A stretch of 64,000 nucleotides of DNA, taken from Chitinophagaceae bacterium (GTDB taxonomy: Bacteria > Bacteroidota > Bacteroidia > Chitinophagales > Chitinophagaceae). The translations under genes and the position numbers were made by a program. Position 1 is the stretch's first letter; the number at the start of each line of letters is the position of its first letter. The stretch covers positions 310,001 to 374,000 of the forward strand of contig JANINS010000003.1 of NCBI GenBank assembly GCA_024508725.1. The letters are read 5' to 3'. Shown here piece after piece: positions 11,654-40,950 of this stretch. The notes beneath the pieces are model-generated. The model had not been told where the DNA came from and searched no databases. It worked only from the letters and a program-made list of their open reading frames with translations.

Positions 11654-12228
11654 ATGGCAAATGTAAAACTTTCGAAAGACGAATTGGAGTTGGTAACCAA
11701 TGCTGAACTCATTTTAACAAAGAACCGCATCATACAAAAAGTGTATGAGCTTTTTGGAGAGTTGAGTATAGCTTACAGGGAACTGAGTAAGGACCTTGAC
11801 GAGGACTTGCTTCACATTCCTCCTAAAATATCGAAAGGTGAAAATTATCTTGGATTACCCTGGGTTATGCTGGACTATCCAAGAAATTTTCACGTGATGA
11901 TGTATTTGCTATCCGAAGTTTTTTCTGGTGGGGAAAGCATTTTAGTATTACGCTTCAATTGCAGGGAAAACACCAGCAACAGTTTGCATCATCTCTTCAG
12001 CAGCATATTAGTAAAGGCTGGTGGATCGGTATTGGTTCAGATGCCTGGCAGCATCATTTTGAAACGGATAACTATCGTTTATTTAATGAGGCAGATAACT
12101 TATCAGCGTTTCCATACATCAAACTGGCAAAAAAAATCCCACTGCATGAGTGGGATAATGTTTTTGATTTCTTTACCAGCAATTTTGCTGAGCTGATGAA
12201 TATCTTAAGCACCAAGGCGATGAAATAA
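11654..12228 (+). pseudogene. Conserved hypothetical protein interrupted by a -1 frameshift
   Basis: Frame 2 starts at ATG 11654 (MANVKLSKDELELVTNAEL) and is coding-like to DYPRNF at 11890. Thereafter the coding signal moves to frame 1 (SRDDVFAIRSFFWWGKHFSITLQLQGK) and ends LSTKAMK at 12228. Joining them gives one ~190-aa protein. The switch point AGA-AAT-TTT (11882-11890) contains A_AAT_TTT, a classical -1 slippery heptamer, but a lost T in the T run explains it equally well. The function is unknown. It is divergent from the LPS permease, and its 3' end overlaps the convergent START-like gene by 24 bases. Confidence 0.7.
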
Positions 12229-19668: not shown

Positions 19669-19757
19669 CGGTGAGAGAGGGATTCGAACCCTCGGTACAG
19701 TTTGACCCGTACGGCAGTTTAGCAAACTGCTGATTTCAGCCACTCATCCATCTCACC
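19669..19757 (-). tRNA. tRNA-Ser (anticodon GCT)
   Basis: The minus strand gives acceptor GGTGAGA pairing with TCTCACC, discriminator G (19669), a D arm GAGTGGCTGAAATC, anticodon stem GCAGT/ACTGC with loop TTGCTAA (anticodon GCT, reading AGC/AGU), a long variable arm GTACGGGTCAAACTGTAC, and T arm GAGGG-TTCGAAT-CCCTC. CCA is not encoded. The long variable arm is diagnostic of class II tRNA-Ser. Confidence 0.96.
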
Positions 19758-37794: not shown

Positions 37795-38583
37795 ATGAAT
37801 ACAGTTATCGTACCGGTAGATTTTTCCGAAACATCGCTAAATGCGGCTAAATATGCAGCGCAATTATTAGTAGGACATTATGGCGTAACACTTTTATTGT
37901 ATCATCATTATTCAAAAGCATCCGAAGAGCAGGAAGCAGAAAGTACATTGATGGGTTTAAAACAGCAGTTGAATGAAAAGTTTGCTGTGAACATCGATGT
38001 TTTGAATCATAAGGGAGATGATTTTATCGAGGACCTCGAAAGAGCCGTTCGTCACAGAAGACCAGAGTTGGTGATCATGGGTATCACCGGACGATCTCCG
38101 TTAGGCCAGGTACTGATCGGAAGCAATACATTAAAATTTGCAGAAACAAGAGCTTGTCCTGTTCTCATCGTTCCGGAGCAAGCCGCATACAGGGAAGTAA
38201 AGAATGTGATGCTGGCATCAGATTTCAAAAATGTATTTAATACTACTCCTTCTGCTCCGATCAAAGATTTCCTGCAAACATTCAGACCACAATTTCATGT
38301 GGTGAATGTAGATCCTGAACATTATGTATCGATTTCTGAAGCTTACCAGAAAGAGAAAGCCGATTTTGAAGAGATGTTCAGAGAATTCAATCCTGAATTT
38401 TATTTCATGCGTTTGTTTGATATTGATGAAGCCCTGAACATGTTTGCCAAGGAAAAAAATATTGATCTTATCATAGCCATTCAGAAACAACATTCATTCT
38501 TTGAGAAGATGTTTAAGAAAACAGGAACCACCAAAAAACTCTCTTACCAGAGTGAAGTTCCTGTTTTGGTGGTGCATGAATAA
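37795..38583 (+). CDS. Tandem universal stress protein
   Basis: 262 aa from ATG 37795 (MNTVIVPVDFSETSLNAAKYA). Domain 1 (~1-140) has the UspA fold with VIMGITGRSPLGQVLIGSNT, close to the ATP-binding G-2x-G-9x-G(S/T) signature. Domain 2 (~148-262) is degenerate (KNVMLASDFKNVF ... FKKTGTTKKLSYQSEVPVLVVHE). It is cytoplasmic and probably nucleotide-binding; such proteins respond to starvation or redox stress in general. A TATCTTTA box at 37768-37775 may be its promoter. Its terminator (38607-38640) separates it from the large noncoding region downstream. Confidence 0.9.
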   Translation: MNTVIVPVDFSETSLNAAKYAAQLLVGHYGVTLLLYHHYSKASEEQEAESTLMGLKQQLNEKFAVNIDVLNHKGDDFIEDLERAVRHRRPELVIMGITGRSPLGQVLIGSNTLKFAETRACPVLIVPEQAAYREVKNVMLASDFKNVFNTTPSAPIKDFLQTFRPQFHVVNVDPEHYVSISEAYQKEKADFEEMFREFNPEFYFMRLFDIDEALNMFAKEKNIDLIIAIQKQHSFFEKMFKKTGTTKKLSYQSEVPVLVVHE

Positions 38584-38606
38584 GACTTTCGACCGTTTAT
38601 TTAAAG

Positions 38607-38640
38607 GCTGACTGGTAACACTGGTCAGCTTTTTTGTTTT
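38607..38640 (+). terminator. Rho-independent terminator of the universal stress gene
   Basis: GCTGACTGG-TAACA-CTGGTCAGC followed by TTTTTTGTTTT. Confidence 0.9.
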
Positions 38641-38661
38641 TATGCTGATGAAAGCACTTGA

Positions 38662-38681
38662 GTACAAGAGTGCGACGCAAC
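38662..38681 (+). repeat. Dispersed 20-base intergenic repeat, subfamily A
   Basis: Exact GTACAAGAGTGCGACGCAAC, directly upstream of the structured RNA region. Confidence 0.85.
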
Positions 38682-39064
38682 GAAAGAACAATCGAAGCGT
38701 TGAAGCTGGCCTCTAAAACTGTATTATACACATTCAAGGTGCATAACCCTGTGAAAATCCAAGAAACTAAAATTAATTCTATAAACGCTGAAACACTTGC
38801 CGGCATTGAATTGTAAATGCTTTCAACAGAGAAACACTAATTCACATTTTCTGTGCAAAACCTGGTTTAAAACAGGTGCAGAACAAAGAGTTCTAAAATT
38901 TGGAAACGGCTGTAAACCTAAAGTATCTTGTAGTTGTAATTGATGATCGAAGTGGTAAAACACCAGGATCTCAATTAAAAAAGAGACAGGCTAGGACTAC
39001 AAACTTCGGTAAGTAAATCTGAACCCGTTTCGGTGAGGCAGAATTGGCAACGAAACTGCAACGC

Positions 39065-39377
39065 CAAATCCCAGGAGATAACAACAGCTTCGGCTAACGA
39101 AACAACCGGGTGTAAGTGCAAAACCCTTCAAAAGGTTTTCCTTACAAATCCAGCAGATAACAAGCCTGGTGAAAACCAGAACTGATAACAATGCTGGTGT
39201 GAAGCAAATATCTTAATTGGTAGCAGCTTCACAAATCCAGTTATGATAACATTGTTTAGCAATAAACATGATAACATCAACTGGTATGAGCACAACATCC
39301 GTCAAAAAGAAGTTGTACTCATCAAATCCAACAGATAACATTATTCATCTGCAAAGCTGAGTATGATCACAAGTTGG
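39065..39377 (+). repeat. Four tandem GATAACA double-strand internal-loop modules
   Basis: Each module is AATCC-type linker, outer stem, GATAACA, inner hairpin, GATAACA-like strand, outer stem. B1: CCCAGG/CCGGG, GATAACA 39077-39083, inner AGC-TTCG-GCT, opposite strand GAAACA. B2: CCAG/CTGG (39150-39197), GATAACA 39156 and 39184, inner CTGGT-GAAA-ACCAG. B3: CCAGTT/AACTGG (39237-39284), GATAACA 39245 and 39270. B4: CCAAC/GTTGG (39328-39377), GATAACA 39334 and GATCACA 39365. Spacing is 80-92 bases. Confidence 0.75.
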
Positions 39378-39494
39378 TTAGCGTTGAGACGGTAAAACGG
39401 ATCAACACTAAGTATCAAAGGTGTTGCTTCGGCAGTCTTGCACCTATGGTACGTTGAGAAGATAGTCTTCACCGACTATGCTGCTCAAAAACTT

Positions 39495-39553
39495 AAAAAA
39501 GCACTAGGTTAGTAAGTGTACGTAAGTATGTTTATTCTCCGGGTGCTTTTTTA
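39495..39553 (+). terminator. Terminator of the structured RNA
   Basis: AAAAAAGCACTAGG pairs with CCGGGTGCTTTTTT with one mismatch across a 31-base loop, followed by ATTT. It lies 51 bases before the M28 peptidase ATG. Confidence 0.7.
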
Positions 39554-39591
39554 TTTGTACCAACCCAAACATTCTCAAAGCTGCGGTTGTG

Positions 39592-39599
39592 TATCTTAG
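39592..39599 (+). promoter_or_regulatory. -7 box of the M28 peptidase gene, leaderless spacing
   Basis: TATCTTAG (7 of 8 matches to TAnnTTTG), 4 bases before ATG 39604. Confidence 0.4.
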
Positions 39600-39603
39600 T
39601 TGC

Positions 39604-40950
39604 ATGAGAAAATTCATTATTCCCTTTTTACTCATTGCCATTTCATCATCTGTTTCTGCGCAAACCATTATCCAAAGAGATCCTGAAATTGAAAAGATGG
39701 TGAACGAAGTTTCACCTGATTCGTTACGCTCATATATTACCAGCCTGGTTTCTTTCGGTACAAGAAGTACGCTTAGTACACAAACAGATCAAAAAAAAGG
39801 AATTGGTGCAGCAAGAAATTGGGTATTGAGTAAATTCAACCAGTTTGCTGCTAACTCTGGTGGCCGATTATCTGCTTATATTGATACAACTACCATTTCA
39901 AAAGGTGGCAGAGTTGATAAGCCAACTTTACTTGGTAACGTAGTGGCTGTTCTCAAAGGAACTGATCCAAACGATAACCGAATCTTCCTTATCAGCGGTC
40001 ATTTAGATAGTCGTGCAAGTGATGTAATGAATGCTATCATCGATGCACCGGGAGCCAATGATGATGGCAGTGGCACTGCAGCAGTAATTGAGTGTGCAAG
40101 AGTAATGAGTACAAGAAGTTTTCCGGCAACGATCATATTTATTGCAGTAAGTGGAGAAGAGCAAAGTCTTTTAGGTTCAGGATTCATGGCAGAACAAGCA
40201 AAGAAAGAAAACTGGAATCTCGAAGCTGTATTTAACAATGACATCATGGGCAGCAACAACAGTAATGAAACAAACATTATCGATAATACCAGGGTTCGAG
40301 TATTCAGCGAAGCATTTTCACCGGCTGATACAGGAAGAACCATTCAGAATATTCGCAATCTTGGTTTAGAGAATGATGGAAGATCTCGTCAACTGGCTCG
40401 TTACGTGAAAGAGATCGGTGAACGTTACGTTGATAACCTAGAAGTGGTAATGGTATATCGAAACGATCGATTTTTACGTGGTGGAGATCATACACCTTTT
40501 GTACAAAGAGGTTTTGCTGCTGTTCGCATTACAGAAATGAATGAGAATTACCACCACCAGCACCAGGATCTGAGAATAGAAAAAGGTATTCAGTATGGTG
40601 ATCTTCCTGAGTTCATGGACTTCGAATATTTAAGAAAGAACACGGCGATGAATCTTGCCAACCTGGCCAGTCTTGCAAAAGCTACATCAATGCCACAACA
40701 GGTTCAGGTTGAGACAAAAAATCTTACCAATTCAACTACTCTTAATTGGTCGGCACCAAAAAGCGGAAAAGCAAAAGGTTACTACGTATTGATGAGAGAA
40801 ACTACCAGTGCCGTGTGGCAAAAGAAATTTTTTACTGCGGAGACGAAGATCACATTGCCATATTCGAAAGACAATTATTTCTTTGCGGTTCAATCGGTTA
40901 ATGAAACAGGAAATGAAAGCTTACCGGTTCTACCTTCAGTTGCTCGTTAA
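39604..40950 (+). CDS. Secreted M28-family zinc aminopeptidase
   Basis: 448 aa from ATG 39604 (MRKFIIPFLLIAISSSVSAQ, signal peptide). The co-catalytic zinc motifs are all present: SGHLDSRASD (His, Asp), PGANDDGSGTAAVIE (bridging Asp), SGEEQSLLGSGF (general base Glu and ligand Glu), NNDIMG (Asp) and GGDHTPFVQRGF (His). The last ~85 residues form a fibronectin III-like domain (STTLNWSAPKSGKAKGYYVLMRE). It likely degrades peptides in the periplasm or outside. No T9SS sorting domain is seen. It is monocistronic, next to the structured RNA. Confidence 0.92.
   Translation: MRKFIIPFLLIAISSSVSAQTIIQRDPEIEKMVNEVSPDSLRSYITSLVSFGTRSTLSTQTDQKKGIGAARNWVLSKFNQFAANSGGRLSAYIDTTTISKGGRVDKPTLLGNVVAVLKGTDPNDNRIFLISGHLDSRASDVMNAIIDAPGANDDGSGTAAVIECARVMSTRSFPATIIFIAVSGEEQSLLGSGFMAEQAKKENWNLEAVFNNDIMGSNNSNETNIIDNTRVRVFSEAFSPADTGRTIQNIRNLGLENDGRSRQLARYVKEIGERYVDNLEVVMVYRNDRFLRGGDHTPFVQRGFAAVRITEMNENYHHQHQDLRIEKGIQYGDLPEFMDFEYLRKNTAMNLANLASLAKATSMPQQVQVETKNLTNSTTLNWSAPKSGKAKGYYVLMRETTSAVWQKKFFTAETKITLPYSKDNYFFAVQSVNETGNESLPVLPSVAR

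Follow-up and report, generated by a model that had tools for sequence, protein, structure and literature searches.

A structured noncoding RNA family of Chitinophagaceae, missing from Rfam, with a conserved promoter and 3′ module and a variable hairpin body

What is encoded in a long gap between two protein-coding genes when the gap offers many stems and no protein? In the window, the 64-kb stretch of Chitinophagaceae DNA analysed here, such a gap follows a Usp gene, whose stop is at 38583, and precedes an M28 peptidase gene with its ATG near 39604, as read on the plus strand (both genes identified by Pfam). The initial annotation had proposed that the whole range 38690-39553 was an independently transcribed, ornate RNA of 0.86 kb in the size class of OLE, GOLLD and ROOL. 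It is nearly certain that the locus represents a structured noncoding RNA family missing from Rfam, and the predicted plus-strand transcript, about 0.62 kb long, starts at about 38933 and ends at 39553.

The boundaries of this transcript were set by features on both sides. As already observed in the initial annotation, the upstream Usp gene has an intrinsic terminator of its own, a hairpin followed by a T-run recognized by eye at 38605-38636 (plus strand), which lies outside the RNA. Also outside it is a dispersed repeat at 38661-38697 (plus strand), found in at least 39 further places of the source genome; this repeat has the look of an inverted repeat, and the congener G001 has copies too. 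The folding of 38700-38900 was no better than that of shuffled sequences (z –0.23), and the 240 nt ahead of the transcript are occupied by this repeat, by three GTGCA-like boxes in tandem and by a promoter of Bacteroidota type. The 5′ boundary at 38690 was thus misplaced, and the whole range 38690-39553 was discarded as RNA, since its first 240 nt comprise repeat and promoter region with no fold; the length was revised from 0.86 kb to about 0.62 kb because the promoter shared with relatives sits at 38899-38930.

This promoter (plus strand) is composed of TTTGG at 38899-38903 and TATCTTG at 38924-38930, which fall in invariant TTTGGAA and TA..TT columns of the promoter alignment A1; TAnnTTTG is the reported sigma-A box of F. 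psychrophilum (PMC9723704). The three tandem boxes, TGTGCAAAACC, GGTTTAAAAC and GGTGCAGAAC (38852-38884, plus strand), placed 12 and 11 bp apart, are conserved and ungapped in A1 and nearly so in A6, and they are presumed to be an activator binding site. The distance from boxes to promoter is nearly fixed across relatives in both alignments. Box pairs of similar kind are few elsewhere, with nine matches in 12 genomes, five of them the RNA's own promoter; a wider regulon of these boxes was considered and set aside, few other places having been found.

From the start at about 38933, which is approximate, a strongly folded RNA is predicted. The plus strand of 38933-39556 gave a fold z of –8.9 and the minus strand –5.5 (60 shuffles each), and five control stretches of equal length gave values from +0.6 to –2.4. 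Most of the structural claims of the initial annotation were borne out. No credible protein frame is present, the only plus-strand ATG frames of at least 20 aa inside the transcript being two of 31 and 30 aa. The many local stems form a stable row of hairpins, in which 29 of 35 helices (at least 3 bp) have a mean pair probability of at least 0.90. The three C(UUCG)G loops were recovered as CTTCGG at 39004, 39088 and 39427; across 2000 dinucleotide shuffles of 38690-39553 the motif averaged 0.07 copies and never appeared three times. The GAAA loop at 39171-39174 is present and closes CUGGU/ACCAG, and the closing terminator has its arms at 39494-39515 and 39532-39553.

All parts of the RNA lie on the plus strand, and the layout begins with a 5′ domain and continues with four modules (M1-M4), each followed by a linker hairpin; a further pair of hairpins then leads to the 3′ module and its U-tract. 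According to the predicted fold, the 5′ domain (38937-39065) consists of hairpins at 38937-38977, 38983-39031 and 39032-39065. Repeat comparison and the predicted fold placed M1, with a AGAUAACA loop and a UUCG hairpin, at 39070-39110; M3, with AUGAUAACA on both sides, at 39237-39284; and M4, with GAUAACA facing GAUCACA, at 39328-39377. M2 (39150-39197) carries a GAUAACA/GAUAACA internal loop and the GAAA hairpin. The predicted linker hairpins are found at 39111-39146 (UUCAAAA loop), 39198-39233, 39286-39322 (with CCGUCAAAAAG) and 39378-39411, followed by a hairpin with a UUCG loop (39412-39452) and another preceding the terminator (39454-39488). The 3′ module (39494-39553), defined by alignments A2/A3 and by matches of the 3′ model, combines a covarying stem, a GGUUAGUAAG loop side, an inner hairpin and a U-tract, and corresponds to the terminator. 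Since UGAUAACA, as read from the sequence, is complementary to itself save at two A-A positions, the two loop strands can pair.

Comparison with G001, the single other genome of the genus compared, revealed the RNA between the same two gene kinds (Usp and M28 peptidase). A stretch of some 85 nt, one module included, is missing from the congener, so that the GAUAACA-type internal-loop module occurs in four copies in the window RNA and in three in the congener; M2 lies within this stretch, as does most of the linker hairpin at 39198-39233. Among 153 alignable window pairs (probability at least 0.5), 123 were pairable in the congener and 30 were not. The 123 comprised 93 identical pairs, 17 changed on one side and 13 changed on both sides, and slid controls gave 1-6 both-side changes.

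In the context of the family Chitinophagaceae, a DNA search found matches in 10 of 394 genomes, eight of them in the box and promoter region only, and because of this short reach models were used. The ten loci provided the promoter alignment A1 and the 3′-module alignment A2, from which the models R1 (sequence only) and R2 were built. A promoter match to R1 was obtained in 179 of the 394 genomes at E≤0.01, covering 72 of 101 genera, and in 114 of these 179 at E≤1e-6. Of these 114 genomes, 88, most of them ranked highest, were read at one locus each, leaving out L038 and L039 (near copies of L035, used in A1/A2). The 3′ module was found downstream on the same strand in all 88 loci, 80 of which had no part in model building; its E value was below 9e-4 in 85 of them and 0.0012-0.0028 in L107, L112 and L123. 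The reverse test led to the same association: a 19-base 3′-module pattern retrieved 49 stretches from a collection of 84,980 species, and 40 had the promoter upstream, all 40 labelled as Bacteroidota (including Niabella, Hydrotalea, Flavisolibacter, Ferruginibacter, Parafilimonas and Pseudobacter); six of the nine stretches without a promoter match were not labelled as Bacteroidota. The 40 include at least three training loci (L162, L163 and L177), and others are shared with the 88. The homologs and the covariation that the initial annotation had proposed to look for were both found, the covariation being strong.

Measured between the start region and the 3′ module's end, unit length ranges from 112 to 740 nt. 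A typical member has 112-190 nt and 68 of the 88 are below 300 nt, and the window member is among the longest because of its extra modules. Alignment A4, made from sequence only, holds 30 of 35 sequences of 146-170 nt (L072, L094, L102, L124 and L129 left out); 22 of its 29 consensus pairs show a both-side change somewhere, and against its 104 compensatory cells, 500 shuffles gave 32 (sd 5) and slid controls 11-25. The structure is favoured over its slid versions because it was derived from the same alignment. In the 3′-module stem (A3, 84 distinct rows), 10 of 14 pairs covary, with 71 cells against 13.8 in shuffles, this alignment having been fitted to the stem. Covariation was weaker in the short class (5 of 19 pairs in A5, which holds 16 of 24 sequences, leaving out L032, L052, L066, L079, L088, L100, L107 and L121), and it was uninformative in the f25 group, where 85% of columns are invariant and one slid control equalled the structure in both-side changes. 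A CNUCAAAA-like loop motif occurs in 50 copies in the 88 units, against 10.3 in shuffles; its count rises weakly with length (r 0.27), and many units are without it.

The neighbours of the 88 units vary. The unit follows yajQ in 49 loci and does not in 39, and among the latter the downstream genes vary in both identity and strand; a single downstream gene family, as expected of a cis-acting leader, was not found over the 88 loci. Because the neighbours differ in this way, the RNA is an independent unit and most likely acts in trans.

Several genomes carry more than one match. Where a genome of the family had a further R1 match, the 3′ module accompanied it in L216, L217 and L220 and was missing in L218 and L221-L226. 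Two copies stand in tandem in G786 (L235, L156) and at separate loci in G238, G123 and G141 (L216, L217 and L220), and at L204 two promoter matches lie less than 8 kb apart. Within one unit, L105, L109, L117, L123 and L230 show a second, weaker 3′-module match just upstream, as if the module had been duplicated.

Comparison with known RNAs did not assign the family. A cmscan with Rfam 15 gave a single match at gathering in the 64-kb window, a tRNA at 19669-19757 on the minus strand; the RNA itself was absent, so the Rfam hit that the initial annotation had named as evidence against its proposal did not occur. Likewise, no match at gathering was obtained in 20 scanned loci, including four that come from other families of the order, and the window RNA was absent from the phage and plasmid collections searched. 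Among 4227 Rfam families, OLE, GOLLD and ROOL gave nothing at E≤10 in 38400-39800. The window RNA resembles them (PMC12286853) in being an untranslated, structured bacterial RNA with many helices, at 0.62 kb in this member; it differs in that large size is not kept in the window's family and in that no covariance model matches. The ornate-RNA proposal therefore stands as regards a plus-strand structured RNA with its own predicted promoter and terminator, and falls as regards the OLE/GOLLD/ROOL size class as a defining trait.

Within the phylum, comparison was made by description. Rfp18 of Flavobacterium psychrophilum is presented in PMC9723704 as a structured independent transcript kept across a genus, and the RNA family predicted here, with the putative Flavobacteriaceae-like members L255 and L257, may be likened to it as a structured, independent RNA of Bacteroidota. 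PMC11697453 and PMC7366714 describe GibS and FopS of Bacteroides as sRNAs linked to the RNA-binding protein RbpB; the small size (about 65-70 nt) and multicopy nature of the FopS sRNAs, and the form of the GibS promoter motif PM2, set them apart from the window RNA by description. PM2 was also dismissed as the type of the window promoter, being described there as near-palindromic at –10 and –30. No description of the window RNA was found among titles and abstract openings of the open-licence full-text literature, and members of the family may already be catalogued as unnamed transcripts.

Relatives were also sought at higher ranks. Within the order, R1 found four genomes that belong to two other families (G395, G461, G497 and G460; E 5e-7 to 9e-5). 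Three of these genomes have in common an RNA of about 180 nt, in which 14 of its 54 pairs carry both-side changes (slid controls, 0-3). Over the class Bacteroidia, R1 was abandoned (12 of 295 genomes at E≤1e-3, several matches lying inside genes), and so was the 3′ model (5 of 295 genomes at E≤1e-4, three from the window's family and the rest, L144-L146, resembling plain short terminators). A wider promoter model, R3, made from 49 sequences, nine from outside the family, was run over 385 class genomes and matched 109 at E≤0.01, mostly weakly, a count that overstates the true members. Of 22 places judged by eye, 18 were accepted and L154, L242, L245 and L246 rejected, with L248, L251 and L253 outside the reading; among 17 weaker places read by eye, none was accepted. 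The accepted places represent 18 genomes from 10 families other than that of the window; four of these genomes were among the sources of R3, and the weakest matches have E values near 5e-4 to 8e-4.

Eight of these class-level loci were read to their end and proved to be noncoding, about 400-650 nt long, and closed by a strong hairpin with a U-tract. Two motifs, absent from R3, were noticed while reading and counted afterwards: RGRGAUAARA shortly past the presumed start (11 of 22 loci, and none of 154 background stretches, each 200 nt long), and GYUCUUUR, which resembles the boxA of rRNA leaders (13 of 22 loci against 3 of 154 background stretches, and 1 of 88, L092, in the window's family). 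The counts over 22 loci are not independent, because they include five near copies of one genus-level group and the four order loci. The boxA-like motif was seen in L092, L233, L235, L239, L240, L241, L243, L250 and L254-L259, and may mark anti-termination in the longer RNAs. By eye, a YACGG-loop hairpin directly before the terminator recurs in several families, and the tandem copies in G786 are six both-side pair changes apart, with none in slid controls. Rfam gave no match inside the class-level RNAs scanned. In L255 (G901) and L257 (G862), an L19-type gene that carries the Rfam L19-Flavobacteria leader precedes the RNA, which in both chromosomes is located around base 12,000 of the record; L257 also has Flavo-1 upstream.

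Promoter geometry and the two other families of the order suggest that the class-level RNAs and the window RNA may be one gene. Its broadest form would be a single, ancient Bacteroidia noncoding-RNA gene with one conserved role, whose hallmark is the promoter with its three boxes and whose body is rebuilt in each lineage; this is conceivable and somewhat doubtful. On this equally uncertain reading, the body would range from 112 nt to several hundred nt, with different modules and with or without the boxA-like element, and the role would require a folded RNA yet accommodate widely differing hairpins.

For the window's family, the computation yields a conserved promoter, covarying hairpins, a conserved 3′ module, module gain or loss between congeners, and varied neighbours. 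Taken together, the best explanation is probably an independent, trans-acting RNA gene with a dedicated activator and a hairpin array that would act as a protein scaffold or decoy. An activator, either a tandem-repeat binder, for instance of the OmpR/PhoB type, or DnaA, would sit on the three boxes and drive the Bacteroidota promoter; transcription would proceed from near 38933 to the terminator, and the resulting row of hairpins with its repeated internal-loop modules would act in trans, the hairpins holding copies of a putative RNA-binding protein. If each module were a separate binding unit, module number and sequence could drift while the promoter and the 3′ module stay. Taken by itself, the proposal of a scaffold or decoy holding copies of an RNA-binding protein is a tentative one, about which some scepticism is in order. 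Protein-sponge RNAs of the CsrB/RsmZ type have repeated hairpins and variable length; by analogy the window family may be compared with them in both respects, with other motifs. The arrangement as an array points towards a scaffold or decoy. The weak tie of the CNUCAAAA-like motif to length and its absence from many units speak against a plain sponge, and the 30 window pairs that the congener does not keep count against the explanation as a whole.

The main rival to the scaffold or decoy, a base-pairing regulatory sRNA whose loops or linkers would pair with mRNA start regions, is rather unlikely: base-pairing sRNAs are known in the phylum (Rfp18, GibS and FopS, as reported in PMC9723704 and PMC11697453), the typical member is of sRNA-like size, and some loop motifs recur, but no common seed is evident because the RNA body differs strongly between genera. 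Far less probable is a cis-acting DNA element whose boxes would titrate DnaA or some other protein, leaving the RNA as a by-product. In its favour, the 50 bp upstream of the promoter contain 0.39 strict DnaA-box matches per locus (background 0.001), a likeness that is partly circular for the first box because R1 was built on it; against this reading, compensatory changes indicate selection on RNA pairing, the spacing between boxes and promoter is nearly constant, and similar box pairs are scarce elsewhere.

Two further readings concern known RNA types. A diverged 6S RNA, which is very improbable, would share with 6S RNA (RF00013) and 6S-Flavo (RF01685) an own promoter and a 3′ module formed by a hairpin with an internal bubble, and it would fill a vacant role, since in six genomes of the window's family no 6S RNA was found by RF00013 (E≤1) or above the RF01685 cut-off. 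The window RNA itself matched neither model, and its 3′ module is a terminator whose upper stem is short, which argues against 6S. The reading is disfavoured moreover because 6S-Flavo occurs in G862 and G901 away from their putative class-level members, a point that counts only if these members, recognized by eye (E 5.6e-4 and 4.8e-4), are true. L157 (G000) was rejected as 6S, being a chance match inside a gene (E 0.85), and the 6S RNA of the window's family may be unmodelled. The least credible reading is a leader or attenuator of the M28 peptidase gene: that gene follows on the same strand, some 50 nt past the end of the RNA, and the neighbours are alike in the congener, whereas a conserved terminator closes the RNA and the downstream genes of the 39 loci without yajQ differ, both of which speak against a leader.

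The model of an independent RNA gene specifies a start, an end, a strand and a presumed activator site, and the size series from 112 to 740 nt offers a natural deletion series for locating the part that matters. A promoter this rigid joined to so plastic a product is an uncommon and testable combination. Bacteroidota regulatory RNA has been studied in few species only, and, if true, this RNA would be one of the few widely kept in the phylum, being spread through a large part of one family and, as promoter geometry suggests, reaching further families of the class.
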